From positions 1,612,001 through 1,676,000 of the forward strand of contig NZ_CP127161.1 in assembly GCF_030263895.1 (NCBI RefSeq): DNA of 64,000 nt. Reading direction: 5' to 3'. Positions 31,329 through 53,241 of this stretch are shown here, in pieces (the first letter of the stretch is position 1; the number at the start of each line of letters is the position of its first letter). The position numbers and the translations under genes are program-made. The stretch is from Proteiniborus sp. MB09-C3. GTDB lineage: Bacteria; Bacillota; Clostridia; Tissierellales; Proteiniboraceae. Below the pieces are notes generated by a model, which was not told the DNA's origin, searched no databases, and saw only the letters and a program-made list of their open reading frames with translations.

Positions 31329-32918
31329 ATGGCAAAGAAAGTAAGAAAAATAGAACCTGTAAAGCAAAAGGTTATTTTAGAATTACAACCTAAAAAACGA
31401 GTTTGTGCCTACTGCAGAGTAAGTACTGATTCAAGAGAACAACAGAATTCCTTTTCTGCACAAGTAGAATATTACAAGACTTTTATCGGAAAAAGAGATG
31501 ACTGGGAATACACAGGAATCTACGCTGATGAAGCCAAAAGTGGTACGCAAGTAAAAAAACGTGATGAATTTCTACGGATGATAAAAGACTGTGAAGACGG
31601 CAAAATTGATATGATCATTACAAAATCCGTCACAAGGTTTGCTAGAAATACAGTAGACAGTATTGAGGCTATCAGAAAGCTAAAAGCACTTGGTATCGGG
31701 GTATATTTTGAGAAAGAACATATTAATACCCTATCAGAAAAAAGTGAGCAGATGATTACCATACTAAGCTCCCTTGCACAAGGAGAGGCAGAAAGCATCT
31801 CCACTAATAACAAATGGGCAGTTAAAAAGAGATTTCAAGATGGAACATTTAAGCTTAGTGATCCTGCTTATGGATATACCAAGGATGAAGATGGAAATCT
31901 CATAATAAAAGAAGATGAAGCAAAGATTGTCCGTAGAATTTTTCATGAATATCTAAATGGCAAAGGCTCGTATATAATAGCAAGGTATTTAAATGACGAT
32001 AATGTCCCAACCATACGCTCAGCAGAAGAATGGCAGGACAGTGTAGTAAAAGAAATCTTACAAAATTCCATCTACGAGGGAGACTTATTATTACAAAAGA
32101 CATATACAACTGAGGTACTTCCCTTTGAAAGAAAATCAAATAAAGGGGAACTGCCTCAGTATTTTATTGAAAACAATCACGAACCCATTATTACAAGAAA
32201 AGAAGGGCAGATGGTCCGAGAAATTTATGAATATCGAAGAAATCAAATGGGAGTAGATGATAGTGGAAAATACCAAAACAGATATGAATTTAGCAGCAAA
32301 ATCATCTGCAAGGAATGTGGTAGCACCTTTAGGAGACAAAAGATTTATATCGGTAAACCGTATGAAAAAATTCAGTGGTGCTGTGTCCAGCATATAAGGA
32401 ATATAAGTAAATGCAGCATGAAAGCTGTAAGGGAGGATATTATAAAAGAAACCTTCCTAACCATGTGGAATAAACTTATAAGTAATTATACAGATATCCT
32501 TTATCCACTACTTGAATCCTTGAAGAATTTAAGAACGGATCATGAGCAGGAAGAAGAAATTAAAAAACTAAATAATAGAATTATGGAATTAACAGAGCAG
32601 AGTCATATCCTTAGTAGAGTCGTATCGAAAGGGTATATTGACTCTGCTATTTTTATAGAAAGACAAAATGCTCTGACTGTAGAACTTGAAGCTATTAAGA
32701 AAATGAGGAATCAATGCCTTGATAATAACGGTTATGAAAAAGAAATCATAGGAACAGCAAGGCTACTAGAAATCATAAGGTATAACCCAGAGATTATAGA
32801 AGAGTATGACGAAAACCTATTTCTCCATACAGTGGAAAATATTATTATCGGTGAAAATTATGAGATTACCTTCAAGCTAATTAATAATCTGGAGCTGACA
32901 GAGTATTATGGAAAGTGA
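31329..32918 (+). CDS. Large serine recombinase 1
   Basis: A 529-residue resolvase/invertase-type recombinase with AAAGGAGG before ATG 31329. The catalytic Ser is residue 32 in YCRVSTD; the N-terminal domain also shows KSVTRFARNTVD. The central recombinase domain (EAKIVRRIFHEYLNGKGS) and a zinc ribbon (CKECGSTFRR ... C) are followed by a coiled-coil segment near 400-450. Such enzymes integrate and excise elements in one step. It overlaps the following gene and starts a three-gene recombinase set. Confidence 0.92.
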   Translation: MAKKVRKIEPVKQKVILELQPKKRVCAYCRVSTDSREQQNSFSAQVEYYKTFIGKRDDWEYTGIYADEAKSGTQVKKRDEFLRMIKDCEDGKIDMIITKSVTRFARNTVDSIEAIRKLKALGIGVYFEKEHINTLSEKSEQMITILSSLAQGEAESISTNNKWAVKKRFQDGTFKLSDPAYGYTKDEDGNLIIKEDEAKIVRRIFHEYLNGKGSYIIARYLNDDNVPTIRSAEEWQDSVVKEILQNSIYEGDLLLQKTYTTEVLPFERKSNKGELPQYFIENNHEPIITRKEGQMVREIYEYRRNQMGVDDSGKYQNRYEFSSKIICKECGSTFRRQKIYIGKPYEKIQWCCVQHIRNISKCSMKAVREDIIKETFLTMWNKLISNYTDILYPLLESLKNLRTDHEQEEEIKKLNNRIMELTEQSHILSRVVSKGYIDSAIFIERQNALTVELEAIKKMRNQCLDNNGYEKEIIGTARLLEIIRYNPEIIEEYDENLFLHTVENIIIGENYEITFKLINNLELTEYYGK

Positions 32919-33849
32919 GGTGAGGTGGATGATGCAAAGGCATATGCCACTTGGCTATAAGATAGTAGATGGAAAAGTAATAATTGATGAAGAAAAGGTA
33001 GATGTGATTAAAAAGATATTTGAGGAGTACCATAAAGGATCATCCTTACATGCCATAGCAAAAGAACTTACAAACGCAGGATTTTTAAATGCTAATAACA
33101 AACCTAATTGGAATCATGGCTCCGTAGGAAAGATACTTCAAAATATTAAGTACGTAGGGGATGACTTTTATCCTCAGATGATAGATAAGGAAACCTTTGA
33201 ATCTGTACAGAAAAGAAGAAAGAAAAAAGAGCAAGAACTAGGAAGAACCCTGCAACCTAATAGCATGAAAAATCAAAGTTTATATAGCAATAAATTAGTG
33301 TGTGGAGAATGTGGTGATGTTTACCGCAAATACATTGAACATGCTGGCAGACCATCTGAGAAGAGCAACTGGAAGTGTAAGAGGTACATCTACCAAAATA
33401 GAGTACACTGTAGAAATTTATTTTTAACTGAAAAAGATATAGAAGATACATTTTTGTCAGCAATCAATAAAATCTTATCAAGAAAGTGGATGCTAGATAA
33501 AGGTAGGAAAAAAGAACCTCCAAGGATCACCTTAGAAATTAGAAGGCTGGAAGAACGAATCAAAGAGCTAGAGTACGAAGAGCATTTCTCATCAAAGGAA
33601 TTATCAGAGCTAATCTTTAAAAGGGCAAAGGCATATTATAGCATCGCTAAAATAGATGATTATGATTATAACACTGAAAAAATAAAAAAATTACTGGCTG
33701 AGAAAGAACAGCTAACAGAGTTTGATGAAGATATATCTATAAACATAATAAATCAGATAGTTATTTATAAAGATGGAAGAATCCTAGTAGAATTTATCAA
33801 TGGCATAACTATGGAGGAGGATCATGAGAAAATAAGAGAGGATGAATGA
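32908..33849 (+). CDS. Recombinase-like protein 2 lacking the catalytic domain
   Basis: Up to 313 residues; the most likely start is one of the ATGs at 32929/32932 behind AGGTGG. It begins directly with the recombinase domain (DVIKKIFEEYHKGSSLHAIAKEL, then NWNHGSVGKILQNIKYVGD) and has the zinc ribbon CGECGDVYRK and a C-terminal coiled coil, but no N-terminal serine catalytic domain. The frame is intact and the gene is tightly coupled to its neighbours, so this looks like an evolved non-catalytic partner, perhaps a directionality or DNA-binding subunit, rather than decay. The role is inference. Confidence 0.85.
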   Translation: MESEVRWMMQRHMPLGYKIVDGKVIIDEEKVDVIKKIFEEYHKGSSLHAIAKELTNAGFLNANNKPNWNHGSVGKILQNIKYVGDDFYPQMIDKETFESVQKRRKKKEQELGRTLQPNSMKNQSLYSNKLVCGECGDVYRKYIEHAGRPSEKSNWKCKRYIYQNRVHCRNLFLTEKDIEDTFLSAINKILSRKWMLDKGRKKEPPRITLEIRRLEERIKELEYEEHFSSKELSELIFKRAKAYYSIAKIDDYDYNTEKIKKLLAEKEQLTEFDEDISINIINQIVIYKDGRILVEFINGITMEEDHEKIREDE

Positions 33850-33850
33850 A

Positions 33851-35509
33851 ATGGCAGTAGCAGTAGCAAAAAAGAATGTAGCATTTATACCAGCACAGAC
33901 AATATATGACAAGAATGTAAGGGTGGAGCTAAAAACCCTAAGAGTAGCAGCTTACTGTAGAGTTAGTACCACCTTAGAACAACAGGAGGGCAGTTATGAG
34001 GCTCAGATATCCTACTACACAGAGAAAATTAAAAGCAACCCAAATTGGAAGAGTGCAGGGATTTATGCAGATGATGGAAAGTCAGCCACTAATACAAAAA
34101 AGCGTGATGATTTTAATGCTATGATTGATGACTGTATGGCTGGGAAAATAGACATGGTCATAACAAAATCAGTCAGCAGATTTGCAAGAAATACAGTAGA
34201 CTCGCTCCAGACCATCAGAAAACTTAAAGAAAAGAATATAGCCATATTTTTTGAAAAAGAAGGTGTGAATACCCTAGAAAGTACAGGAGAATTACTGATT
34301 ACCATCTTAAGCAGTCAAGCACAAGAAGAAAGCAGAAACCTAAGTGAAAATACAAAATGGGGTTTAACAAGAAGATATGAAAATGGAATTGTCAGCATCA
34401 ATCATAAGAAGTTTATGGGATATACCAAAGATGAAAATGGTGAACTAGTCATAGTACCTGAACAAGCAGAAATAGTGAGACGAATTTTCAGAATGTATTT
34501 AGAAGGAAGTAGTATAGGGGAGATTATAAAAGCTCTGGAGGCAGATAAAATCAAAACTGTCACAGGAAAGGAAACATGGCATCCTGGTGTAATAGAAAAA
34601 ATGTTAGTCAATGAAAAGTATATGGGAGATGCCCTAATGCAGAAAACCTACACCGTAGACTTCCTAACAAAGAAACGAGTGAAGAATAACGGAATCGTAC
34701 CTCAGTATTATATAGAAGATAATCACGAGGCTATCATACCAAAGGAATTATTTTATAAGGTACAGGAAGAAAAGGCTAGAAGAGCCAGCTTGAATAAAGC
34801 GGCAGTTACAAGAAAGGCAAATAAGCTAAAAAAAGAAAAGAGCAAATTCAGCTCCAAATATGCATTAACAGAAATTTTAGTATGTGCCGAATGTGGACAT
34901 CCATACCGTAGGCAGACATGGTCAAAATATGGACAAAAAAGCGCAGTATGGCGATGTGAGAACAGGCTAAAGAATGGGGCAAAGGCATCTTGCAAGCACT
35001 CGCCTACCTTAAAAGAAGAACCACTACATAATGCCATTATGACAGCTATTAATAATGTAGTAGAAAACAATGGAGATTTTATAGGAGCTTTCAGAGAAAA
35101 TGTCATCAGAGTCATCGGCGGATACTCAACCAAAGATATCCCTACAGAATATGACGAACAGATTGAATCCCTGCAAAAGGAGATGCTAGCCTTAATCGAA
35201 GAAAACGCAAAACAAGGAGCTGTAGCAGAAGATTTTGATAATGAGTACAAAAGAATATCAGAGAAGATAAACGAGCTTAAACAGGCGAAATTAAAGCTTG
35301 TAAGGGAGAAGAAACAGGCTGAGAACTATAAACAGAAACTAACGGAAATGGACACTACCCTAAAGACTGTAAGACCACAGGTAAGAGAGTTTGATGAAGA
35401 CTTAGTCAGAAGATTAATAAACACCATCAAAGTGAATAAGGGAGAGAGACTGGAGATACAGTTTGAATCAGGCATAGTGATGGAGCAGATGGTAGATTAT
35501 TATGATTAA
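33851..35509 (+). CDS. Large serine recombinase 3
   Basis: About 552 residues from ATG 33851 (GAGAGG at a suitable distance; ATG 33842 is too close). Catalytic Ser is residue 39 in YCRVSTT, with KSVSRFARNTVD further on. Recombinase domain, zinc ribbon (CAECGHPYRR ... C) and a long coiled coil (about 430-500) follow in order. It is the last gene of the trio and is followed by a terminator. With recombinase 1 it offers two complete active sites for excision or integration of the element. Confidence 0.92.
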   Translation: MAVAVAKKNVAFIPAQTIYDKNVRVELKTLRVAAYCRVSTTLEQQEGSYEAQISYYTEKIKSNPNWKSAGIYADDGKSATNTKKRDDFNAMIDDCMAGKIDMVITKSVSRFARNTVDSLQTIRKLKEKNIAIFFEKEGVNTLESTGELLITILSSQAQEESRNLSENTKWGLTRRYENGIVSINHKKFMGYTKDENGELVIVPEQAEIVRRIFRMYLEGSSIGEIIKALEADKIKTVTGKETWHPGVIEKMLVNEKYMGDALMQKTYTVDFLTKKRVKNNGIVPQYYIEDNHEAIIPKELFYKVQEEKARRASLNKAAVTRKANKLKKEKSKFSSKYALTEILVCAECGHPYRRQTWSKYGQKSAVWRCENRLKNGAKASCKHSPTLKEEPLHNAIMTAINNVVENNGDFIGAFRENVIRVIGGYSTKDIPTEYDEQIESLQKEMLALIEENAKQGAVAEDFDNEYKRISEKINELKQAKLKLVREKKQAENYKQKLTEMDTTLKTVRPQVREFDEDLVRRLINTIKVNKGERLEIQFESGIVMEQMVDYYD

Positions 35510-36448: not shown

Positions 36449-37360
36449 ATGTTAAAAGAAGAAATAGTAAGAAGACTCACTAATAATGACTCTTTGTTTA
36501 ATAAAATGCATATCATCAGGCAAAAATTTGACATAATACCTGAGCAAAATGAACACATTGGGACGTGTATTAAATATCTCGATATATCAGAGATGCGAAA
36601 AGAGTTTATTAATGATCTGGTGGATACAATAGTCGACTGGGTATATTCTTCGGAAAAATATGAACAACTAGTAAAGGTATTTGTGGATAAAGGGAAATCA
36701 ACTGCATCTGCTAACTCAGAGATAATAAGAAAAGCGCATCAAAAGTTCCGTAAAGGAACTGAAAAGGACTTGTTAATACAAGGCCAATTTGGAGAACTGT
36801 TGTTATTTAACTTCATCCAGAAGCATTTTGAAGCTGTTCCTCTCTTAAGAAAAATGAAGATTACTACATCGTCAAAACACGAAAGATTTGGTGCTGATGC
36901 AATTCATTATAAAATTGATAACGACAAAAACATTATTATCTTAGGTGAAGCAAAAACATATACAAGTGATTATAAATTTAATGAGGCATTCCAGGTGGCA
37001 TTAGATAGCATATTGGATACTTATCAAAAACATAGAGAAGAATTGAATTTATATATTCATGAGGACTTTCTAGATAGTGAAATGAATGAGGTTGCAGAGT
37101 CATATTTAGAAGGAACAATGGAAAATGTAGAAATTCATTTGGTTAGCATCATAACATATAATGAGACTAAGAAAATTAATATAACCTCGCAAGATATGAT
37201 ACACGAGCAAATAGAAACAATTATTAAAGAGAGATTCAAGAAATTTGATAACGATAAAATTGATGTGAAGTCAAATCCAATCTTGAGTCGAATAACGTAT
37301 ATAGTATTTCCTGTTTGGGAGCTGGAGCAGTTAGCAAGAATACTCCAAGATTACTTGTAA
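36449..37360 (+). CDS. hamA: Hachiman defence nuclease HamA
   Basis: A 303-residue protein of the DUF1837/HamA type. The C-terminal domain has QGQFGELLLFNFI, then GADAIHY (about residue 149) and ILGEAKTY (about 165), which form the PD-(D/E)XK-like D...E-x-K nuclease site. Hachiman protects against phages; HamA is the nuclease held by and released from the helicase HamB when it meets damaged or unusual DNA. AAGGAG precedes ATG 36449. The helicase gene follows after only a few bases. Confidence 0.85.
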   Translation: MLKEEIVRRLTNNDSLFNKMHIIRQKFDIIPEQNEHIGTCIKYLDISEMRKEFINDLVDTIVDWVYSSEKYEQLVKVFVDKGKSTASANSEIIRKAHQKFRKGTEKDLLIQGQFGELLLFNFIQKHFEAVPLLRKMKITTSSKHERFGADAIHYKIDNDKNIIILGEAKTYTSDYKFNEAFQVALDSILDTYQKHREELNLYIHEDFLDSEMNEVAESYLEGTMENVEIHLVSIITYNETKKINITSQDMIHEQIETIIKERFKKFDNDKIDVKSNPILSRITYIVFPVWELEQLARILQDYL

Positions 37361-37378
37361 ACTTTGGGAGAGATAAAG

Positions 37379-39928
37379 ATGGATGAGTTGATACAATCGG
37401 TTTTAGATAAATGGCTTGAAATAGAATACTATCATGTGGCTAATAAAGCTGGATTTATTAATGAAAAAAGAGTCATAAAAGGAAGTTATAAGCTAATTCT
37501 GGATACTATAAGGTGTTTAGATTATTTAACGACTGTTAAAAATGATTACCCTTCCAATTATGTTATAACGGTAATTGCCTTAATGTGGGAACATGTTGAT
37601 CGAAATGAGTATGATATACGAAATTTTGTTCTTAAGATACTAACTCGTATAGGGTATCCAACATCTGCAATTATTATTGATGATGAATTTGATATTAGTG
37701 AAGGCAAATTTTTCAGACCAAATAGTATAATTGATATGTTGACATTAACACTGCAACATCAAAAAAATGAAATTACTATAATGGAACATGTTTTTTTACT
37801 TACTGACTTTCAAATAGAGATTTGGAAGGGATTAAATGAGGAAAAGTTGATTGGAATCTCAGCGCCAACCTCTGCAGGTAAATCATTTGTAATTCTGTTA
37901 AACACTATTTCAAAAATTATCTCAGAAAATATTGATGTAGTCTATATTATTCCGACCCTTAGTTTACTTAACCAAGTAACAGAAGATTATAACAAGATGT
38001 TAAAAAAATTGGGCGTAAAAAACTACAAAATTGTGAATAGTTTCAATCCAAATGTAAGTAATGATTACAAGACCATATATGTACTTACTCAAGAGAAAGC
38101 ATTGGCGGCTTTTTCTAATGAAAAAACCGCATTTTCAAAAAAAATGATATTGGTGGCTGATGAAATACAAAATATAGAAAGAATACAAGTGGATTCCGAT
38201 TTGCGTTCTAAAATACTGTATGATACATTGATCGAATTTCGAAACAAGAAAAATGTTGAACAAATAATAATTTCTGGACCGAGAATAGAGGAAATTGATA
38301 CATTAGGGCATAGATTATTTGGGAAAAAGGCTCATGATATAACAACGACAATAAGCCCTGTTTTAAATTTAACATATAGTATAAAGAAGGTCGATGAACG
38401 CTTCTATTTTAAACAGTATTGCGCTATTAAAGATACTTCCTACTCGCGACTTATAAATAATCCAAGTCAAATCGCTGGATATGGTAATAAACAATATTCA
38501 AGTGAGTACATGGACTACCTATTTGCTTTTATCCAAAAAATTGGTTTACAAGATCAAAACATTATTTTTGCACCGACATCAAAGAAAGCAAAAGAAATTG
38601 CATGTTTTCTTTCAGATAAGTCGAGTGATAAATCAAAGGATTTAAATGATCTCATAGAATATTATAGAGATAGTATAAATGAGAATTACGCAATGTGCAT
38701 AACTCTTGAAAAGGGAATTGCATATCATCATGGGAAACTTCCTATGCATGTAAGGAGAACGATAGAAAAGGCTATTTCGGACAAGCTAATACAAAATGTT
38801 GTATGTACAACTACGCTGATGCAAGGCGTTAATATGCCTGCACAAAATGTAATAATTAGAAATCCGCATTTATATACAAGAAAGAAAGCTGGATCTACGG
38901 AATTATCTTCATATGAAATGGCTAATTTACGAGGACGAGCTGGAAGATTATTAAAAGACTTCATTGGACGTACTTATGTATTAGATGAAAGTGGCTTTGA
39001 AGGTTTAGATGAATACAATCAGTTTGATTTGTTTGAGGATACAAGTGTTGAATTGCCTGTTGGATATGGGGATAAATATGAAGAATATAAAAATGAAGTG
39101 AATGAAGTTCTGAGTAAGAACGAAAGTGTAAATGCCGGCATGAATAAATATGGTTATTTAGTTTCTTATATTAGACAAACTGTACTTCGTTATGGTAAAA
39201 ATGCAATAACTAGAATGAATGAAGTAGGGATAAGTCTTACAAAGGAACAAGTTGCTGCAATCATTAATAAAATGAGCAGTATAAGTGTCCCTAAAGAAAT
39301 ATGTTTAAAGAACAGGTATTGGGATCCAATTGTGCTTGATAATATCTACACAGAGTTTAAATCAAAAAAGTTGCCAATTACACCTGTTGAAAGAGGAGCT
39401 AAAACTCGACTAAACGAAATGCTAAAATTTCTTCGTGATAACCATTCGACAACTCACATGTATAACAGATATGTACCAGAGGTGTATAGAGAAGGGATAG
39501 GTAGATCGATATTATGTAGCACATGTATGGATTGGTCATGTGAGAAACCTTTATCAGAAATTTTATCAGGTGAGAGATATTCTGGAGAGAATGCAACTGA
39601 AAATATAGATAATATGATTGATACATTGCAAAAAGTTGTTTCGTTCAACATCCCCCTCTTGTTAAAACCTATATTTGATATATTCGGGAATGAAAGTATT
39701 TTCCTTTTGTGCATGCAAGCTGGTGCTTATAAGGCGTTTACGAGAAGGATGATAGAAATGGGAGTACCTAGAGAAACTTCAATATATCTGGCGGAAAAGC
39801 TACTGAATAAATATACTCCAAATGTGAAAGCAGAAGATGACATTGAATCAATAATTAAGAACGTGATAAAGAAAAATTTTTCGTCTTTGCCATATTGGAT
39901 TCAAGTACAATTAGAATTTATGATTTAA
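37379..39928 (+). CDS. hamB: Hachiman defence helicase HamB
   Basis: Superfamily 2 helicase of about 849 residues (start at ATG 37379, GGGAGAG in front; the frame extends to a TTG at 37364). Motif I is APTSAGKSF (about residue 162), motif II DEIQ, and the C-terminal helicase domain shows TTTLMQGVNMPAQ and ANLRGRAGRL, as in Ski2/Hel308-like proteins. The C-terminal 250 residues are helical. Order and spacing with hamA fit a Hachiman operon. Confidence 0.88.
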   Translation: MDELIQSVLDKWLEIEYYHVANKAGFINEKRVIKGSYKLILDTIRCLDYLTTVKNDYPSNYVITVIALMWEHVDRNEYDIRNFVLKILTRIGYPTSAIIIDDEFDISEGKFFRPNSIIDMLTLTLQHQKNEITIMEHVFLLTDFQIEIWKGLNEEKLIGISAPTSAGKSFVILLNTISKIISENIDVVYIIPTLSLLNQVTEDYNKMLKKLGVKNYKIVNSFNPNVSNDYKTIYVLTQEKALAAFSNEKTAFSKKMILVADEIQNIERIQVDSDLRSKILYDTLIEFRNKKNVEQIIISGPRIEEIDTLGHRLFGKKAHDITTTISPVLNLTYSIKKVDERFYFKQYCAIKDTSYSRLINNPSQIAGYGNKQYSSEYMDYLFAFIQKIGLQDQNIIFAPTSKKAKEIACFLSDKSSDKSKDLNDLIEYYRDSINENYAMCITLEKGIAYHHGKLPMHVRRTIEKAISDKLIQNVVCTTTLMQGVNMPAQNVIIRNPHLYTRKKAGSTELSSYEMANLRGRAGRLLKDFIGRTYVLDESGFEGLDEYNQFDLFEDTSVELPVGYGDKYEEYKNEVNEVLSKNESVNAGMNKYGYLVSYIRQTVLRYGKNAITRMNEVGISLTKEQVAAIINKMSSISVPKEICLKNRYWDPIVLDNIYTEFKSKKLPITPVERGAKTRLNEMLKFLRDNHSTTHMYNRYVPEVYREGIGRSILCSTCMDWSCEKPLSEILSGERYSGENATENIDNMIDTLQKVVSFNIPLLLKPIFDIFGNESIFLLCMQAGAYKAFTRRMIEMGVPRETSIYLAEKLLNKYTPNVKAEDDIESIIKNVIKKNFSSLPYWIQVQLEFMI

Positions 39929-43081: not shown

Positions 43082-43693
43082 GTGTGGTTTATTAAAATTG
43101 TAAAACTAGGAGATATATCGAGTATTACAACAGGTCAAGTAATTAAAAGAAAAGAAGCTCGACCAGGTGATGTGGATGCAATTCAATATCGTATTCTTAC
43201 TTTAAAGAGCTTTGATGAAGACGGTTTTCTAGTGAAAGAAGAAATTGATTCCTTTAAAGCAAGTGAAGAAATTGAAAGTAAATATATTACTTCAAAAGGT
43301 GATATTGTTGTTCGACTCAGTATGCCTTTTACATCAATTACAATAGATGAAGAAAGTGAAGGGATATTGATACCATCTCTTTTCGTAGCAATAAGAGTTA
43401 ATTGTAATGATATTTTACCATCTTATTTAAGCTTGTATCTCAATAGCAATAAAATGAAGAAGCAATATATTAAAGAAGCAAGAGGTTCAGCAATTCAAAT
43501 ACTTAAAACATCTGCTTTCAAGGAATTTGAGATTATGATACCGGATATGAGTATACAGGAACAAGCTGTGACTCTTAATGAATTGCTGATGAGAGAAAAA
43601 AGATTACTTCAATTATTAATTAAAGAAAACAATAAAAGAAATCAAATCATATTTGATAATATGATTACTGGAGGTTTAAATCATGGAGATTAA
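43082..43693 (+). CDS. hsdS: Half-size type I specificity (S) protein
   Basis: About 200 residues with one target-recognition domain and one conserved helical region (ending KRNQIIFDNMITGGL), against two of each in a full S subunit. The frame opens at GTG 43082, but that codon overlaps AGGAGG (43077-43082), so true initiation may be at ATT 43091 (KIVKLGDISS). Half S proteins can dimerise to a symmetric specificity unit. It precedes hsdM, with 11 bases of overlap, in an operon that also carries a full-length S gene. Confidence 0.75.
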   Translation: MWFIKIVKLGDISSITTGQVIKRKEARPGDVDAIQYRILTLKSFDEDGFLVKEEIDSFKASEEIESKYITSKGDIVVRLSMPFTSITIDEESEGILIPSLFVAIRVNCNDILPSYLSLYLNSNKMKKQYIKEARGSAIQILKTSAFKEFEIMIPDMSIQEQAVTLNELLMREKRLLQLLIKENNKRNQIIFDNMITGGLNHGD

Positions 43694-45212
43694 AGTGCTA
43701 ACTCAGGAAGAAATAAATGGAACACTATGGAGAGCGTGTGATACATTTAGAGGTAAAATAGATTCAGCTATCTATAAGGACTACATTTTAGTTATGCTCT
43801 TTATAAAGTACGTTAGTGATATATATAAAGAACGTAGGCAAGAAATGATGGAAAAGTATAATAATGATGTAGAAATGGTTGAAAGACAAATGCGTTATGA
43901 GAGATTTGTTTTGAATGAAAGATCTACATTTGATTATATTTATGATAAAAGAAACCAGCCAAACATTGGTGAAATCATTAATATAGCCTTAGAGCAAGTG
44001 GAAGAAGAGAACAAGACAAAGTTAAGAGGTGTGTTTAAAAATATAGACTTTAATTCAGAAGCTGTTCTTGGTAGTACAAAAGAGCGAAATACAATGCTGA
44101 AAAATTTACTTGAGGACTTTAAAGACCTTGACCTTAGACCATCAAGGCTCAAAGGTGATGATATTATAGGAAACGCCTATGAATATTTGATAGGACATTT
44201 TGCTTCAGATGCTGGAAAAAAGGGTGGAGAGTTCTTTACCCCGGCTGAGGTTTCAGAGCTTTTAGCAAGATTAGTAAAGCCTCAAGAAAATGATAGAATC
44301 TATGACCCTACTTGTGGCTCTGGATCATTATTGATTAAAGCATTTAATAAAGTTCCTAATGGGAAAGCTCAAATCTATGGACAAGAAAGAAACGGTCAAA
44401 CGCATTCACTTTGTCGTATGAATATGTTCTTGCATAATATTGATGATGCGAAAATCGAATGGGGTGATACATTAGCTAATCCGAAGCATTTAGAAAACGA
44501 TAAGTTGATGAAATTTCAAGTTGTTGTAGCAAATCCTCCCTTCTCCCTTGATAAATGGGCGTCAGGCTTTGCAGGGGAGGGTAATGATAAGAATTTCAAT
44601 ATGGAAGCATCACTAGATCCATATAATCGCTTTTCTTGGGGAGTACCACCAAAATCAAAAGGAGATTATGCGTTCGTTCTTCATATGCTTCATTCATTAG
44701 CGGAAGGTGGAAGGATGGGTGTCGTATTGCCACATGGTGTATTATTTAGAGGAGCTAGTGAAGGAAAGATTAGGAAGAAAATTATCGATATGAATCTTTT
44801 AGATGCTGTGATTGGACTTCCTGCAAATCTATTCTACGGTACTGGTATTCCTGCATGTATCTTAGTGTTTAAGCAGAACAGGGATAGAAAAGATATTTTA
44901 TTTATAGATGCATCTGGTGATGAGTACTATGATAAAGGTAAAAATCAGAACAAACTACGCGAAGAAGATATTCAGCGTATTATTGACGCTTACGAAAAAT
45001 ATGAAAATATTGAAAAGTTTGCATATGTAGCATCAATAGATGAAGTAAAAGAGAACGATTATAACCTTAACATACCAAGGTATGTTGATACTTTTGAAGA
45101 AGAAGAATTAGTGGATATAGAAAAGGTTGCCAAGAGCATAGCAGACATCAAGGAAGAATTAGCTGAAGTGGAAGCACAGTTAGCTAAGTATCTTCACGAA
45201 CTTGGTTTTTAA
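43683..45212 (+). CDS. hsdM: Type I restriction-modification methylase subunit HsdM
   Basis: A 509-residue N6-adenine methyltransferase. The N-terminal helical HsdM domain is followed by KKGGEFFTPAEVSELL, the SAM-binding motif DPTCGSGSL (about residue 209) and the catalytic NPPF (about 284). Length is normal. It methylates the host recognition site together with S, and is needed for restriction with R. ATG 43683 overlaps the preceding S-like gene; the full S gene follows after 12 bases. Confidence 0.95.
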   Translation: MEIKVLTQEEINGTLWRACDTFRGKIDSAIYKDYILVMLFIKYVSDIYKERRQEMMEKYNNDVEMVERQMRYERFVLNERSTFDYIYDKRNQPNIGEIINIALEQVEEENKTKLRGVFKNIDFNSEAVLGSTKERNTMLKNLLEDFKDLDLRPSRLKGDDIIGNAYEYLIGHFASDAGKKGGEFFTPAEVSELLARLVKPQENDRIYDPTCGSGSLLIKAFNKVPNGKAQIYGQERNGQTHSLCRMNMFLHNIDDAKIEWGDTLANPKHLENDKLMKFQVVVANPPFSLDKWASGFAGEGNDKNFNMEASLDPYNRFSWGVPPKSKGDYAFVLHMLHSLAEGGRMGVVLPHGVLFRGASEGKIRKKIIDMNLLDAVIGLPANLFYGTGIPACILVFKQNRDRKDILFIDASGDEYYDKGKNQNKLREEDIQRIIDAYEKYENIEKFAYVASIDEVKENDYNLNIPRYVDTFEEEELVDIEKVAKSIADIKEELAEVEAQLAKYLHELGF

Positions 45213-45224
45213 GGGGGAAATAGC

Positions 45225-46493
45225 GTGAGAGATTATTTAACAAACTATCAAATGATATTACGTGGAGATACTCCTAAAGGTTTTATAAAAGATGATTTCT
45301 GGATTATACCATCTGATTGGGAAAAAACTAAGATGAAAGATATTTTGGAAGAAAGAAAAGAGTATACAACGGATCAAGATACTTACCCATTATTTAGTTT
45401 AACAATTGAAAAAGGGGTTGTAGAAAAAACTGACAGATACGAAAGACAGTATTTGGTAACTAAAGATGGTGATAATTATAAAGTAGTATATGAAAATGAT
45501 TTTGTTTATAATCCAATGAATATTAGATTTGGTGCTGTAGCATTGCATAAGTTAAGATATCCAGTATCTGTTTCAGCATATTATAATACGTTCTATATAA
45601 AAAACGGTTATAATCCCAGATTTATCGAATATTTTTTACAGTCATTTAGAATGTTACACTTTTATAACAATTATGCAGAAGGATCATTAATTGAAAAAAG
45701 GAGACTTCATTATAGTGTGCTTTTGGAGTATAGTTTTAGCTTCCCTCCAATATTTGAGCAAAATAGAATTATTGAAATTCTTTCAACGTGGGACAAAGCT
45801 ATCGAATTGAAAGAAAAGCTAATCGATGAAAAGAAAAAACAAAAGGCGGGGCTGATGCAAAAATTACTTACTGGAAATGTGAGATTTACTGGATTTAATG
45901 ATGCATGGGAAGAAGTGAAGTTTGGCAAGGTATTCAAGTTTTTAAATAAAGAACGTGTTAGTGAGCCGCAGAATTATAAGTTGCTAACTGTAAAACTCCA
46001 TTTAAAAGGTATTGAAGCAACTGAAAAATATCCAAATGACACAAAGAATGGTAGGCCATATTATTTGAGAGAACCAAATGAAATATTAATTGGACGCCAG
46101 AATTATCATAACGGTGGAATAGGAATTGTACCAAGTAATATGAAAAATTACATTGCATCAAATGCAATAAGTAGTTTAACAACAATTAAAGGTGATTTAA
46201 TGTTTTTATTTTACTATATTTCAAATGTTGACTTTTATAAAAGGGTCGGACATATGATAGGTGGTACAGGACAAAAGGAAATATCTGAAACAACTATGAA
46301 AAATCTGGTTTTACGTATTCCTAAATCATTAGAGGAGCAGAAAAAAATTGGAGAAGTTCTTAAAACAGCCGATAATGAAATAGATTTATTAGAAAAAGAA
46401 CTAGAAAGTCTAAAGCAACAAAAGAAAGGCTTAATGCAACTTCTATTAACAGGCATAATAAGAGTGAATACCCAAGAAAATGAAAAGAGGTGA
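45225..46493 (+). CDS. hsdS: Type I specificity subunit HsdS
   Basis: A 422-residue S protein with two target-recognition domains and two conserved helical spacers (KKQKAGLMQKLLTG near 210 and LKQQKKGLMQLLLTG near 400). It determines the bipartite DNA sequence recognised by the complex. GTG start at 45225 after AGGGGGAAA. The stop overlaps the region used as ribosome site by hsdR. Confidence 0.93.
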   Translation: MRDYLTNYQMILRGDTPKGFIKDDFWIIPSDWEKTKMKDILEERKEYTTDQDTYPLFSLTIEKGVVEKTDRYERQYLVTKDGDNYKVVYENDFVYNPMNIRFGAVALHKLRYPVSVSAYYNTFYIKNGYNPRFIEYFLQSFRMLHFYNNYAEGSLIEKRRLHYSVLLEYSFSFPPIFEQNRIIEILSTWDKAIELKEKLIDEKKKQKAGLMQKLLTGNVRFTGFNDAWEEVKFGKVFKFLNKERVSEPQNYKLLTVKLHLKGIEATEKYPNDTKNGRPYYLREPNEILIGRQNYHNGGIGIVPSNMKNYIASNAISSLTTIKGDLMFLFYYISNVDFYKRVGHMIGGTGQKEISETTMKNLVLRIPKSLEEQKKIGEVLKTADNEIDLLEKELESLKQQKKGLMQLLLTGIIRVNTQENEKR

Positions 46494-46497
46494 TACT

Positions 46498-49400
46498 GTG
46501 CGTAGAGCGGAAGCATACGATGAAATGAACATATCTCAAATCCCTGCTTTGGAGGTATTAAATAAAATAGGGTATACCATCATTTCGCCCGAAAAAGCAG
46601 AGCAGATGCGAGGGAATCTGTATAATGTTGTTCTTAAAGATATTTTGTACGAACGATTAACAGCCATTAATAGCTTTGATTTTAAGGGTTGCACATATAA
46701 GTTTTCAGAAAAGAATATTCAGCAGGCAATACTTGATATTGAAGAAGCGTTAACAGATGGTTTAATTAAAACCAATGAGAAGATTTATGACTCATTAATT
46801 TTAGGCCGGAGCTATCCAGAAAGTCTTTCTGAAATGGATGGTACGAAGTCCTTTAATCTGAACTATATTGATTGGGAAAATCCTGAGAACAATGTTTTCC
46901 ATGTGGTGGAAGAATTTTCGGTGGAACGAGAGGATGGACAAGGTACTGTACGTCCTGACATTGTTACTTTTATTAACGGCATTCCATTTGGGGTGATTGA
47001 ATGTAAGAAAGCAAGTATCTCTATCTCTCAGGGAATTAGCCAAATGCTTAGAAATCAGGGAAAAGAATATATTCCACAGCTATTCAAATTTGTTCAGATT
47101 GTCATGGTTACAAACAAGAATGAAACCCAGTATGCCACTACTGGAACACCTAAAAAGTTTTGGTCATTATGGAAAGAAGATAAGGAGTCTATTGAGTATA
47201 AGTGGTTTGAAGAAACACTAGCAGAGACTGTTACTTGTAGAATACCAACGGTGCAGGATAAAAATATTATTTCCCTGTTTCATCCAAAAAGAGTTATAGA
47301 AATTATACGTTTTTTCACATTGTATGATAAAAATATAAAAAAGATAGCAAGATACCAACAGTATTTCGCTATCAAAGAAATCATTAGAACCATTGTAGAA
47401 ACCGATAGGAATGGTAACCGCCAATCAGGTGTTATTTGGCATACTCAAGGTTCAGGTAAGTCCCTAACTATGGTGATGCTTTCAAGGTACATTTTATCTC
47501 AGTTTGCTGATATTCATCCCCAGGTGTTGGTCATTACAGACCGAATCGAACTAGATAGCCAGATACATCAAACCTTTAATCATTCGAGACTGAGAGCCGA
47601 AAGAGCCATAAGCGGGAGGCATCTTGTAGAGCTGATTAACAATAACGGAGCAGATATTATTACATCTTTGGTACATAAGTTTGATACTGCTTCAAAGCAT
47701 CAGAAACCTGTAAAGTCAAAAAATATATTTGTATTAATTGATGAATCTCATAGGACCCAATATGGAGAACTAAATATCAAAATGAAGAAAGTATTCCCGA
47801 ATGCCTGTTATTTAGGGTTTACAGGTACACCTTTGATGAAAAAAGATAAGAGTACCATGAAGAAGTTCGGTGGACGTATGATTCACAAGTACACTATTAA
47901 AGATGGTGTTGAAGATGGTGCCATTGTGCCACTGCTCTACGAAGGAAGACTTGTTGAACAGACAGTAAATCGGAATGCTATTGATAAGCGTATTGAAATG
48001 ATTACGAGGAATTTGGCTGAGAAGCAAGCAGAAGAACTTAAAAAGAAGTGGAGTAAATTTGAAGCAATTGCTTCATCAGAACAGCGTATTCGTTTGATTG
48101 CAGATGATATCTACGTACATTATACAAAATTTTATAAAGATACCTTTGCAAAAGCAATGCTAGCCACAGCATCAAAATTTGATGCCATTCGTTACAAAGA
48201 GTCCTTTGATGAATATGGAGATTTAAAAACAGCTATTGTTATTTCACCGCCAGATCAACGGGAAGGGTATGACGAGGTTGATGAAGAACCAAAAGATCGT
48301 GTTCTCAAATTTTGGAATAAGATGATGGAAGCCTACAGTGATCCACAAAAATATGAAGACCACATCAAGAGTGAATTTATTGATGGTGATGAATTAGAAA
48401 TTTTGATTGTAGTCGATAAGCTTTTAACTGGTTTTGACGCTCCTAGGGCATCTATTCTCTATGTTGATAAACCGATGAAAGAGCATACTTTGTTGCAGGC
48501 TATAGCACGTGTGAACAGGCTCTATGAAGGAAAGGATTTTGGGTTAATAGTAGATTATAGAGGACTTATTCAAGAACTGGATTCAGCTATGAGAACCTAT
48601 TCAGGTGCGGGTCTTGAAAACTTTGATGGAAAAGATCTTGAAGGTGCACTAGTTGATGTCATTAGTATAGTAGGAAAACTAAGAGAATCCTATTCAAATG
48701 TTGTGGCCATATTCAAAGGAATCAAAAACAAACAGGATAAGGAAGAGTACGAACTGTTGCTAGGTGATGAAGCCCTTCGAAATGACTTCTATAATCAGTT
48801 AAGTAACTTCGGAAAATACTTAGGTATAGCTCTTGAGTCAGAGCATGTCTATAATGCCATAGGTGAAGATGATATCAAGCTTTATAAACGTGAGTTTAAG
48901 TTTTATCAAGAACTTAGAGCTTCTGTAAAGCTTAGATATTCTGACACCATTGATCATAAAGAGTATGAGGCTAAGATGAGAAATCTGATGGATACCTATA
49001 TTGCTGCGGAAGATATCATTCAGATAACGGCACCAGTGGATATCCTGAATGAAAAAGAGTTCGAAGATGAGTTGATGCGTTTGGGTTCGCCAAGAGCTAA
49101 AGCAGATGCAATTCGTACAAGAATGACAAAACGCATCAGTGAAAAGTGGGATGAGAATCCAGCTTATTATAAGAAATTCTCCGAACGTATTGAAGAAATC
49201 ATAGAGCAGTATAAGGAGAAAAGAATCTCTGAATTAGAATACCTAGAAAAAATGCGAAATGTTATGAATGATTTTAGAAAGGGGTATTCAGGTACAACTT
49301 ACCCAGAGAAAATCAAACATAATATCCATGCTCAAGCCTTTTATGGTGTGGTTAAAGAAGTGCTTGAAGATGAAAGGTATTATGAAGCAGGAGTTACAGA

Positions 49401-49653
49401 GTTAGTGGCAGAAGATGGCCCTATCTACAACTATGAAGGTATTTTAGCCGATATTGCAATGGAAGTTGACGTGATTATTGAAAGGCATTGTAAGGTGGAT
49501 TGGCACGATAATCCAGATGTTCATAAGAAAATTTCTCAGGAGATAGATGAACTTTTGTATCTAGTCAAGAAAAAGCATTTTCCTAAAATGACCTTTGATC
49601 AGATAGATACAATGATTGAAAATATTAAAACTGTGGCCCTAAGAAGGTACTAG
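46498..49653 (+). CDS. hsdR: Type I restriction subunit HsdR
   Basis: A protein of about 1051 residues from GTG 46498, which has AGAGGTG in front; an in-frame ATG at 46480 lies inside hsdS. The N-terminal nuclease domain has RPDIVTF and VIECKK (about residue 167; D...E-x-K). The translocase motor shows GSGKS (Walker A, about 316), DESH (about 415) and GFTGTPLM. HsdR moves DNA and cuts at a distance from unmethylated sites. Length and domain order are normal. Confidence 0.95.
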   Translation: MRRAEAYDEMNISQIPALEVLNKIGYTIISPEKAEQMRGNLYNVVLKDILYERLTAINSFDFKGCTYKFSEKNIQQAILDIEEALTDGLIKTNEKIYDSLILGRSYPESLSEMDGTKSFNLNYIDWENPENNVFHVVEEFSVEREDGQGTVRPDIVTFINGIPFGVIECKKASISISQGISQMLRNQGKEYIPQLFKFVQIVMVTNKNETQYATTGTPKKFWSLWKEDKESIEYKWFEETLAETVTCRIPTVQDKNIISLFHPKRVIEIIRFFTLYDKNIKKIARYQQYFAIKEIIRTIVETDRNGNRQSGVIWHTQGSGKSLTMVMLSRYILSQFADIHPQVLVITDRIELDSQIHQTFNHSRLRAERAISGRHLVELINNNGADIITSLVHKFDTASKHQKPVKSKNIFVLIDESHRTQYGELNIKMKKVFPNACYLGFTGTPLMKKDKSTMKKFGGRMIHKYTIKDGVEDGAIVPLLYEGRLVEQTVNRNAIDKRIEMITRNLAEKQAEELKKKWSKFEAIASSEQRIRLIADDIYVHYTKFYKDTFAKAMLATASKFDAIRYKESFDEYGDLKTAIVISPPDQREGYDEVDEEPKDRVLKFWNKMMEAYSDPQKYEDHIKSEFIDGDELEILIVVDKLLTGFDAPRASILYVDKPMKEHTLLQAIARVNRLYEGKDFGLIVDYRGLIQELDSAMRTYSGAGLENFDGKDLEGALVDVISIVGKLRESYSNVVAIFKGIKNKQDKEEYELLLGDEALRNDFYNQLSNFGKYLGIALESEHVYNAIGEDDIKLYKREFKFYQELRASVKLRYSDTIDHKEYEAKMRNLMDTYIAAEDIIQITAPVDILNEKEFEDELMRLGSPRAKADAIRTRMTKRISEKWDENPAYYKKFSERIEEIIEQYKEKRISELEYLEKMRNVMNDFRKGYSGTTYPEKIKHNIHAQAFYGVVKEVLEDERYYEAGVTELVAEDGPIYNYEGILADIAMEVDVIIERHCKVDWHDNPDVHKKISQEIDELLYLVKKKHFPKMTFDQIDTMIENIKTVALRRY

Positions 49654-49662
49654 GCGGTGACT

Positions 49663-50388
49663 ATGGAAAAACACAAAATCACCTATAGAGGAAAAATTAT
49701 AGAATTTGATTTGCAACGGAAAAATGTAAAAAATATAAATTTGAGTGTCAGGCCAGATATGAGTATTATTGTTTCAGCCAGCGATAAAGTTCCTATTGAA
49801 TATATCCTTAGTTTTGTAAAATCTAAGGCTCATTGGATTATAACAAATGTAGGTTACTTCAAAGATGTTCAGTCAGAACATATTGCAGATAAAGAATATT
49901 TGAGCGGTGAAACATTTAAGTATCTGGGTAAGCAATATCGCCTAAAAGTCGAAGAAAGCGATAAAATTGAAGGTGTTAAATACTATAGAGGCTATCTCTA
50001 TCTATCTGTGAATGATAAGCATAACTACACCAGAAAAGAAAAATTGATTAATAATTGGTATAGAGAAAAAGCACATGAAAAATTCAATGAAAGCCTCCAA
50101 AGAATGTATCAATATTTAGAAAAGTACGGTATTGACAAACCAGTAATCCAAATAAGGAAAATGAAAGCTAGATGGGGTTCATGTATCCCTGAAAAACAAC
50201 TTATACTACTTAATAGTGAATTGATAAAAGCACCTAAGCTATGTATTGATTATGTTGTTCTTCATGAATTAATTCATTTCAAGTATAGGAACCATGATTC
50301 AAATTTCTATGATTTTATGACATCTTTGATGCCAGATTGGAAGCAACGAAAAAAAATATTGGATGATGAAGTTGTAAGAGAGTTATAG
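49663..50388 (+). CDS. YgjP/SprT-like metallopeptidase
   Basis: About 241 residues from ATG 49663 (GTG 49657 also in frame). The C-terminal half has RWGSC and the zinc motif HELIHF (about residue 201) with a later H-D pair, as in YgjP/WLM (DUF45) proteins. These genes are often the last member of type I R-M operons, and this one starts 9 bases after hsdR. A role in proteolytic control of the restriction complex has been suggested for the association but cannot be read from sequence. Confidence 0.85.
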   Translation: MEKHKITYRGKIIEFDLQRKNVKNINLSVRPDMSIIVSASDKVPIEYILSFVKSKAHWIITNVGYFKDVQSEHIADKEYLSGETFKYLGKQYRLKVEESDKIEGVKYYRGYLYLSVNDKHNYTRKEKLINNWYREKAHEKFNESLQRMYQYLEKYGIDKPVIQIRKMKARWGSCIPEKQLILLNSELIKAPKLCIDYVVLHELIHFKYRNHDSNFYDFMTSLMPDWKQRKKILDDEVVREL

Positions 50389-50432: not shown

Positions 50433-50461
50433 CCCCATAGATGTTGGTAGCAACTATGGGG
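50433..50461 (-). terminator. Hairpin, T run on minus strand
   Basis: CCCCATAG (50433-50440) and CTATGGGG (50454-50461) form an 8-bp stem; read on the minus strand it is followed by CTTTTTT. On the plus strand it could still weaken transcription after the R-M operon. Confidence 0.6.
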
Positions 50462-50617
50462 ACTGATAAGCATAGCCTATCTTAATTCATAATCATCTTA
50501 TCATATTGTAGGTGAAGAAATCAATAATTACTTGGCTTGCGAATTCGTATTATCAAATGGTGAGTTTGAGGAAATGTTGAATTAAACAATTCACAATAAA
50601 ATGAAAGGGTGTATAAG

Positions 50618-51547
50618 ATGATTATTAAACAAAAAAGGATAAGAAACTTATCTAAGTTAAAAGTATTAGAAACAGGTTCACGTTTTAGAGTCGGAGTAGT
50701 GGATGTAGAAAAAAGAATTAAAGAAATGAAGGAGATTGGTTTCACAAACGAATTGAAAATAGGAGAAACAATTCTACCCGACATAATTGGACCAGCTACG
50801 AGGAGAAATGCCGAGGGGGATTATATATTATTAAGAGATAAACCCAAGGAGCAGCATTCAAGAATGATTGAATGGACATATAAACAGTGGGCAGGTAGAG
50901 GAGAAACAAGAGAAGTAACTGAATCTACATCGATTTCATATGAAAGATTTCAGAGACAGGTCATACCTCCAACTGGTATTGAATTTACAATTGTTAGCAA
51001 TGGAAAGTCTAAAAATCTTGTATCTCCTGTATTTGTTATGGATGAAACAAAAAGAAATGAAATTATTTCGGCTGTCAATGTTATTCTAGAAATATTCGGG
51101 GAATGTGAAATTTTTGACTCTACTAATAATCCAATACTACCACCAAAAGTTATAAGACTCAATTGGGAGCTATTACCCAAGGGGAAATTCCCATGGGAGA
51201 AACAAAAGGAAAGATTGGAACCTTATTTTAAGAGAGCAATAGGTACAAATAGAGCTGTTATTGAAAAGAGAATAGAAACCATTAATGAGTATTCACCTGA
51301 TTTTACTGCTATTGGCACAGGAGGCTTTGGTGGTTATATTGTTCACGGTTTTGAAGATTTGAACATGTACATTTTGGAGAGTGTAAAAGTGAATAATGCT
51401 ACTTATGTTTTAAGAAATGATTGGGAAAGCATTTCACAGCTAACAAAAGCTGAAATACTAAATAATGATTTACATGAGACTCGTATAGTCCATAATAAGA
51501 ATTGGTATAAAAATCTGAATCATCTATTTGATAAAAATTTATCCTAA
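50618..51547 (+). CDS. Unknown protein, first gene of NTase/DUF6602 cassette
   Basis: About 309 residues from ATG 50618, with AAAGGG upstream. I cannot assign a family. The C-terminal about 70 residues (GFGGYIVHGF, ILESVKVNNATYVL, then RIVHNKNWYKNL) look like a compact conserved domain and recall C-terminal domains seen in other uncharacterised defence-island proteins. No catalytic motif, signal peptide or membrane segment. It is in one direction with the nucleotidyltransferase gene 96 bases downstream. Confidence 0.65.
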   Translation: MIIKQKRIRNLSKLKVLETGSRFRVGVVDVEKRIKEMKEIGFTNELKIGETILPDIIGPATRRNAEGDYILLRDKPKEQHSRMIEWTYKQWAGRGETREVTESTSISYERFQRQVIPPTGIEFTIVSNGKSKNLVSPVFVMDETKRNEIISAVNVILEIFGECEIFDSTNNPILPPKVIRLNWELLPKGKFPWEKQKERLEPYFKRAIGTNRAVIEKRIETINEYSPDFTAIGTGGFGGYIVHGFEDLNMYILESVKVNNATYVLRNDWESISQLTKAEILNNDLHETRIVHNKNWYKNLNHLFDKNLS

Positions 51548-51640
51548 GCTGACAAGAGATTACTTAGATGGATTGATAAATTTAATCGTTACATATTGAA
51601 TGTACGAATAAAGTTGAACTTTAAGATTAATAGGGGTGAA

Positions 51641-52411
51641 ATGATGACTTCTGATGAATATGTTAGAAGGATTATTGCTAAATATAAAGTACCTAATGAG
51701 GTTGATGCTCTGACACAGTGTTTTGTAGTCAATCCTTTAATAAATATGATAAAAGAATGGGCAGGTGATTGCCTTAATGATATTCAAATATCTGGATCAA
51801 GAGCAAAAGGAACTGCTATAAATATTAGTTCGGATTTAGATTTATTTGTTTCGCTAAAATCAACTACTAATAATACTTTAAAGGAGATCTATGATTCTCT
51901 ATTTAGCTATATTAGCAGCAGTAAGGGTATTAATTGTAGAAAACAAAATGTTTCTATAGGAATAAATTACGGTGGGCATAGTATTGACCTGGTTCCTGGG
52001 AAGAAGCATGTTGGTAATACAAATGACCATAGTTTATATAGAAACAAGAAAAATACTTGGACACAAACCAACATACACAAGCATATATCGATAGTAAAAA
52101 ACTCTGGAAGGCTTGAGGAAATCATCCTATTAAAAATATGGAGAAAGTTGCACAATTTAGATTTTCCCTCTATTTACTTGGAGTTAGTGACAATAGAAGC
52201 TTTGAGATATAAAAATAAGAATCAGCCAGCTGCAAACTTCTTATCAACCTTGGATTACCTTAAAGATAATTTTGTTGATAAAATTATCAAAGATCCTGCT
52301 AATACAAACAATGTAATATCAGATGATTTGTATAAATATGAAAAAGAGGATATAGCTAAGAAAGCTAAAGAGAGTAGAAATGAAGAGTACTGGGAGAAGA
52401 TTATTTGGTAA
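51641..52411 (+). CDS. CD-NTase-like nucleotidyltransferase
   Basis: About 256 residues; ATG ATG at 51641/51644 follows AGGGGTGA, while the frame opens earlier at TTG 51596. The polymerase-beta-like core is clear: GSRAKGT (about residue 50), then SDLDLF giving the DxD pair (about 63-65) and a third Asp in HSIDLVPG (about 113). The following helical domain resembles the OAS/CD-NTase group, whose bacterial members make cyclic oligonucleotide signals in CBASS defence. No CBASS effector of a known class is beside it. The next gene starts 16 bases later. Confidence 0.78.
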   Translation: MMTSDEYVRRIIAKYKVPNEVDALTQCFVVNPLINMIKEWAGDCLNDIQISGSRAKGTAINISSDLDLFVSLKSTTNNTLKEIYDSLFSYISSSKGINCRKQNVSIGINYGGHSIDLVPGKKHVGNTNDHSLYRNKKNTWTQTNIHKHISIVKNSGRLEEIILLKIWRKLHNLDFPSIYLELVTIEALRYKNKNQPAANFLSTLDYLKDNFVDKIIKDPANTNNVISDDLYKYEKEDIAKKAKESRNEEYWEKIIW

Positions 52412-52427
52412 ACAGGGGGGTAGTGAT

Positions 52428-53156
52428 ATGGGACAAATTGATATTAAAAGTCTTTTCTATTCTTTACAGACCCAGATGTGTGCTAAGTTGTCGACCAATA
52501 GGCAACACATACAGCATCCTGGCATAAAAGGTGATTCATCCGAATTAAATTGGATTGAATGGCTAAAAACTTATTTACCGAAAAGATATAGCGTAGATAA
52601 AGCTTTTATAATTGATTGCGACGGAAATATGAGTGATCAAATTGATGTAGTTATTTACGACCAACAATATTCACCTTTTGTATTCAATCAGGATAATGCT
52701 TATTATATTCCTGCCGAGAGCGTTTATGCTATATTTGAAGTTAAGCAAGAAATTAATAAAGAAAATATCATCTATGCTGGTGATAAAACAAAAAGTGTAC
52801 GCTCTTTAAAAAGGACATCAACAGCAATCCCGCATGCCGGTGGATATTATGCTCCAAAGCCACACAATAAGATTCTTTCGGGAATATTAACGTTATCAAG
52901 TGTTTGGAATCCGCCTCTAGGGAAAAGCTTTGAAGAAGCTATATATAGCTTAGAGGATGAAAGTAAACTAGATATTGGATGTATCTTAGCAGAAGGTTCA
53001 TTCTTGGCAGATTATAAAAATGATGTTTTGATGAAAAGCACAGAGGAAGAATCATTGATTTTTTTCTTTCTAAAATTATTAATAGAGCTACAAAGTTTGG
53101 GTACTACACCTGCGATTGATATTAATTGTTATGGAAGTGCATTGGATTCTATATAA
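52428..53156 (+). CDS. DUF6602-like predicted nuclease
   Basis: About 242 residues from ATG 52428, preceded by GGGGGG. The N-terminal half has WIEWLKTYLPKRY, then SDQIDVVIYD (about residue 68-78) and AIFEVKQE (about 101-107), giving the D...E-x-K arrangement of a PD-(D/E)XK nuclease. Proteins of this kind are annotated as DUF6602. In this cassette it is the likely effector, with the upstream nucleotidyltransferase as sensor or signal maker. A terminator ends the cassette 65 bases further. Confidence 0.68.
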   Translation: MGQIDIKSLFYSLQTQMCAKLSTNRQHIQHPGIKGDSSELNWIEWLKTYLPKRYSVDKAFIIDCDGNMSDQIDVVIYDQQYSPFVFNQDNAYYIPAESVYAIFEVKQEINKENIIYAGDKTKSVRSLKRTSTAIPHAGGYYAPKPHNKILSGILTLSSVWNPPLGKSFEEAIYSLEDESKLDIGCILAEGSFLADYKNDVLMKSTEEESLIFFFLKLLIELQSLGTTPAIDINCYGSALDSI

Positions 53157-53220
53157 TTTTTGTATATCATCGTATAGTAGAAGAAAAGATGCCTTACTAA
53201 TATAAAAGCTATAATTTATA

Positions 53221-53241
53221 ACACCCTTATTGGGTGTTTTT
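53221..53241 (+). terminator. Terminator of NTase/DUF6602 cassette
   Basis: ACACCC, a TTATT loop and GGGTGT followed by TTTT. Compact and typical. Confidence 0.85.

Follow-up and report, generated by a model that had tools for sequence, protein, structure and literature searches.

Predicted two-gene CBASS with NucC adjoins an independent, ZorC-like gene in a defence island of Proteiniborus sp. MB09-C3

We find that three neighbouring genes in a defence island of Proteiniborus sp. MB09-C3 most probably belong to two separate units, a reading to which we assign a probability of roughly 0.85: genes 2 and 3 would form a type I-like CBASS and gene 1 would be an independent, ZorC-like cargo gene. 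The sequence analysed is a 64,000-nt stretch of contig NZ_CP127161.1 (the window), and all coordinates are window positions. Its plus strand carries gene 1 (50618-51547; 309 aa), gene 2 (51641-52411; 256 aa), predicted to encode a CD-NTase (CBASS oligonucleotide cyclase), and gene 3 (52428-53156; 242 aa), predicted to encode the endonuclease NucC, with intergenic gaps of 93 and 16 bases. A first-pass annotation of this DNA had correctly described three genes with short gaps and had proposed them as a single cassette and a candidate for an undescribed defence system. The latter proposal falls on both conditions that the annotation had set for its refutation: PADLOC already lists the cyclase cluster of gene 2 and, as NucC, the effector of gene 3, and the genes are mostly found apart.

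The surroundings of the three genes are a defence island, as the annotation had also held. PADLOC recognises a type I restriction-modification (R-M) set (43683-49653) upstream of gene 1, and Hachiman HamA/HamB (36449-39928; HamA model PDLC00157, E = 7.6e-120; HamB model PDLC00177, 1133 bits) likewise upstream. A YgjP-like gene (49657-50388) ends 229 bases before gene 1, and the next gene downstream of gene 3 belongs to an IS21-type element whose IstB lies below the model cut-off (150.7 of 200 bits). The terminator that the genes were said to share is borne out in part: a terminator-like stem-loop with a T tail does lie 3' of gene 3 on the plus strand (53220-53238), but what speaks for it is its position, because the pattern scan gave a count at chance level (1 found, 1.3 expected). 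Pattern scanning found no terminator between genes 1 and 2, and a promoter scan was uninformative (9 found, 16.5 expected). An inverted repeat at about 50434-50463, CCCCATAG...CTATGGGG, was spotted by eye in the interval separating the YgjP-like gene from gene 1; its minus-strand side carries a T run, and it is missing from the pattern scan output. Three consecutive ORFs, all large and serine recombinase-like as read from translations only, precede the defence genes (31329-35509).

By sequence, gene 3 is a full-length NucC with a predicted PD-(D/E)XK active site and cA3 pocket. The absence of any known CBASS effector reported at first pass is thus contradicted both by PADLOC, in which the best match is the CBASS effector model "Endonuclease (NucC)" (PDLC00745, E = 6.2e-104), and by solved structures: phmmer against the PDB retrieves NucC entries 6q1h (E = 1.1e-64) and 6p7o from Escherichia coli (E = 3.8e-64), followed by the Vibrio (E = 1.2e-51) and Serratia (E = 8.8e-51) proteins. 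Residues 5-239 align with 6p7o gaplessly in the printed alignment, and R53, D73, Y81, E104, K106, and T226 are identical between the two proteins. These six residues, to which Lau et al. 2020 reportedly assign roles in catalysis and cA3 binding, are present in the window and in all eight linked relatives. The DUF6602-like character given to gene 3 in the annotation is also upheld (Pfam, E = 1.5e-35). We rejected a reading of gene 3 as an unexplained DUF6602 nuclease in view of the solved NucC matches; DUF6602 is a family name and no rival to them.

Gene 2 is identified as a CBASS cyclase, a CD-NTase with a GS motif and catalytic Asp residues, by the PADLOC cyclase model PDLC00803 (residues 2-256, E = 5.8e-93) and by its motifs. 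These comprise SGSR, with G52-S53 preceded by S51, the lid residues T143 and H148, and D65, D67, and D116, in agreement with the nucleotidyltransferase with three catalytic Asp described previously. Matches to SMODS and to NCBIfam CBASS cyclase models fall below cut-offs, and solved CD-NTases are distant (best 9sa4, E = 1.1e-5). PMC13424991 links cA3 synthesis in clades C and D to a Ser or Thr before GS together with a Thr at Lid 1 and a His at Lid 2, and PMC8682760 describes cA3 as the activator of NucC. At these positions, each of the eight NucC-linked cyclase relatives shares S51, T143, and H148 with gene 2. The product of gene 2 is thus most likely cyclic tri-AMP (3'3'3'-cAAA, cA3), which is a prediction from residues that carries the rule beyond the clades C and D for which it is stated.

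The pairing of the two genes recurs well beyond the window. Relatives of gene 2 were found in 24 plasmid records, of which 10 were read; together with genome loci L053 and L054 these make the 12 relatives examined, a weak partial match (G301/L026, E = 7.7e-4) being left out. In 8 of the 12 (L027-L031 and L034-L036), the gene immediately after the cyclase encodes NucC; all eight are on plasmids, from Paenibacillus, Cupriavidus, Paracoccus, Sinorhizobium, Ensifer, Rhizobium (two), and Caballeronia. These plasmid pairs, that of Paenibacillus rhizovicinus among them, have the same two genes in the same order as the window, with gaps from an overlap to about 66 bases and cyclases 42-66 % identical to gene 2; unlike the window, they have no gene 1 and have other neighbours. 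NucC is absent beside the relatives in L032 and L033 (plasmid) and in L053 and L054 (genome). Two of these NucC-less cyclases are altered: that of L032 (Calothrix) has C51, E65, and N116, with Glu and Asn at two catalytic Asp positions, and that of L033 (Deinococcus) has A53, with Ala for the Ser of GS.

A type I CBASS consists of a cyclase and an effector with no ancillary genes, as defined in PMC9122588. Genes 2 and 3 fit this definition: NucC, the effector, stands 16 bases downstream of the cyclase, neither gene 1 nor the YgjP-like gene before it has a CBASS ancillary match in PADLOC, and the pair occurs without gene 1 in eight relatives. The resemblance to CBASS logic, a signal maker plus an effector, that had been drawn for the cassette therefore holds for genes 2 and 3, which would be CBASS itself, and leaves gene 1 outside the unit. 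Type III CBASS with NucC (the E. coli MS115-1 type, as on the Thauera and Proteus plasmid loci L064 and L065) has the same NucC family, about 46-51 % identical in plasmid matches, and, like the window, places it in one operon with a CD-NTase. In L064 and L065, however, the order is cyclase, Cap7 (HORMA), Cap6 (TRIP13), and nucC, with HTH and ImmA genes upstream, whereas in the window a shorter cyclase is followed directly by NucC, without Cap7, Cap6, HTH, or ImmA genes. Type III was rejected for the window locus, Cap7 and Cap6 being absent among its ORFs.

The CBASS reading of genes 2 and 3 is based on homology, conserved catalytic residues, and repeated two-gene linkage, and what follows is inferred by analogy with published NucC and CBASS work. 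Upon phage infection, the CD-NTase would make a cyclic trinucleotide, most likely 3'3'3'-cAAA, which would bind NucC trimers and cause them to pair into hexamers. The hexamers would cut double-stranded DNA, and cell and phage DNA would be destroyed before the phage matures, i.e., by abortive infection.

Gene 1 is of a different kind. It was described as unrecognised in the first-pass annotation, and sequence searches against Pfam, PADLOC, NCBIfam, PHROGs, and the PDB return no family match for it. Structure prediction, which the annotation had suggested, gives an AF2 model with two domains, an N-terminal one (about residues 1-175) and a C-terminal one (about 181-309), and the model of the latter has ZorC, 8r68, as its top PDB match. 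Profile comparison with a shuffle control, to which this match lends support though weak alone, indicates that the C-terminal half (residues 175-309 as modelled; 51140-51544, plus strand) corresponds to the EH-signature domain of ZorC, a Zorya effector. The PADLOC ZorC model matches 2 of 13 gene-1 relatives weakly (E = 0.0023 and 0.0025), both at the C-terminal end. For profile comparison we assembled five ZorC proteins, each adjoining ZorB and ZorD matches (ZorD of L062 at 2e-5); their profile finds the solved ZorC 8r68 (E = 9.1e-12), and a further search for ZorC on plasmids gave two partial matches. An hhalign comparison of gene 1 (25 sequences) with ZorC scores 45.3 (probability 75, P = 2.5e-5); the best of 200 column-shuffled controls reaches 21.4 and the reversed control 16.3. 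Smaller alignments give P = 1.3e-4 and 1.2e-4. Four residues of the gene-1 domain, E254, R289, H292, and W296, are invariant in alignments A1, A3, and A6, and hhalign pairs E254 and H292 with the Glu and His that are invariant in the five ZorC proteins and W296 with the invariant ZorC Trp; the pattern R...E...(N)A.Y...RxxH...W is common to both.

The domain model (pLDDT 88.2, pTM 0.83) is supporting. Foldseek against the PDB ranks 8r68 first, at values non-significant alone (E = 0.33, probability 0.60), as does VIA, at a Z of 6.3 (113 aligned, 3.5 A) that is under the level of 8 and tied with the unrelated 3imo_A (5.8). By itself such a match would prove nothing; its rank adds weight because the protein that tops 350,542 chains is the one that sequence had indicated. 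Pfam EH_Signature (PF15611) matches none of the 13 gene-1 relatives, window included, at E <= 1, nor L009 and L019 at E <= 10. For the full-length model, ZorC is absent among the best 50 matches listed, Foldseek gives no match at E <= 0.001 in the PDB or BFVD, and the best VIA match, UvrA/UvrB, covers the N-terminal half only (Z = 6.4, under the level of 8). For the C-terminal topology, a RelE-like reading made by eye was dropped once the ZorC match appeared. Compared with type I Zorya ZorC (8r68; PF15611), with which it shares a C-terminal domain with invariant Glu and His, gene 1 differs in its unrelated-looking N-terminal half, in falling below the Pfam model, and in having no ZorB or ZorD match in 27 stretches from outside the species. 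Type I Zorya has ZorA, ZorB, ZorC, and ZorD together, whereas searches for ZorB and ZorD in the window found neither; a single ZorB query of the window's own genome, run with no positive control in that genome, was empty.

Gene 1 is independent of genes 2 and 3, a mobile cargo gene and no part of the CBASS unit. Using tblastn we retrieved its relatives from 20 plasmid records and a single phage record; a profile search finds the gene in 4 of 398 phylum genomes, own genome included, and a viral collection has it at 9 places; four single-protein scans of viral contigs gave nothing new. Outside the species we count 27 places: 11 on plasmids (11 of the 20 records were read), 1 phage, L003, 9 from the viral collection, and 5 genomes, with duplicates (L041, L042, L006, L007, and L021-L023) counted once and L002, L004, and the window's own loci left out. 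The stretches are 2.3-18 kb long, L045 being cut inside the gene. The conserved co-occurrence of the three genes, proposed as a check at first pass, was searched for, and the genes lie mostly apart: gene 1 stands beside 0 of the 12 gene-2 relatives examined, and genes 2, 3, ZorB, or ZorD stand beside gene 1 at 0 of the 27 places (tblastn E <= 1e-4, stretch read). The single three-gene system was rejected on these counts and on the disjoint accessions of the 20 gene-1 and 24 gene-2 plasmid records. We therefore consider it very improbable that gene 1 is a new regulatory or sensor ancillary component of CBASS, taking the place that HORMA/TRIP13 have in type III. Such a role would suit the common strand, the 93-base gap, and the lack of a terminator seen between genes 1 and 2, as well as a trio kept in three records (the window, L002, and L004). 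However, the order of gene 1, gene 2, and gene 3 is confined to these three, and L002 and L004 are not independent of the window because they are near-identical to it; among the 398 phylum genomes, gene 2 is found in 4, own genome and one weak partial match included, and both genes only in the window's own. As a side observation, the cyclase of L004 (CALLZZ010000396.1, 313-3746) is split after about codon 62 by an insert of roughly 2.6 kb with two ORFs resembling an IS21-type pair; its NucC is intact.

The neighbours of gene 1 bear on two further explanations. PADLOC confirms defence neighbours at 5 of the 27 places, namely Gabija (L010, L017, and L049), Avs4 (L048), and a single-chain restriction-methylation enzyme downstream of the gene-1 relative with a 17-base gap (L014), and annotation or reading adds restriction genes at 6 more; the resulting 11 of 27 is a raw, uncontrolled count. 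R-M type genes lie near gene 1 in the window and L014 (by PADLOC), in L003, L038, L051, and L052 (by translations), and in L018 and L012 (by annotation), which would suit an accessory gene of the neighbouring type I R-M system. We regard this as quite unlikely, since the order varies (gene 1 precedes the R-M genes in L051 and follows them in the window and in L052), the types of R-M are not the same, and 16 of the 27 places have no recognised defence neighbour in the stretch read, with 4 more having Gabija or Avs4; the adjacency would be explained because both kinds of gene favour defence islands. Presence on small plasmids and viral-collection contigs could instead mark gene 1 as serving plasmids and prophages, in counter-defence or in element maintenance. 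This is unlikely, though less so than an R-M accessory role: the neighbours of gene 1 include Gabija, Avs4, and R-M genes, its chromosomal island also holds Hachiman and type I R-M, the C-terminal domain is similar to that of a defence effector, and mobile carriage is not decisive, as prophages and plasmids carry defence genes too. On viral contig L037 (2842-5918), about 0.6 kb separates a gene-1 relative (57 %) from two upstream ORFs that by eye appear ATPase-like and STAS-like.

Gene 1 is most likely a stand-alone defence, or defence-interacting, protein that would act on DNA as ZorC is thought to. According to PMC12904381, PMC12409349, PMC12939059, and PMC11890865, ZorC is an effector that ZorAB recruits and that then binds and degrades phage DNA together with the helicase ZorD. 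If gene 1 works in this way, the sensing must come from its N-terminal half or from a neighbouring system, because neither ZorB nor ZorD is nearby. More tentatively, and with some doubt on our side, gene 1 may found an undescribed single-gene defence family in which an EH-signature effector of the ZorC type, no longer tied to the ZorAB motor and joined to its own N-terminal sensor domain, has spread on plasmids and prophages across many phyla. Searches of open-licence literature returned a single paper, on a magnetotactic bacterium, for the EH-signature domain and the PADLOC paper for stand-alone ZorC.

The supposed new cassette is thus a CBASS that a defence database recognises, which removes a false candidate. 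As a compact CBASS with NucC and without HORMA/TRIP13, the pair in the window is useful for asking how a cyclase without these helpers senses phage. The cassette is ordinary, and the lead is the detached, ZorC-like gene-1 family: if it is indeed a detached ZorC module, the EH-signature domain could be studied in one soluble protein of 309 aa, without a membrane motor.
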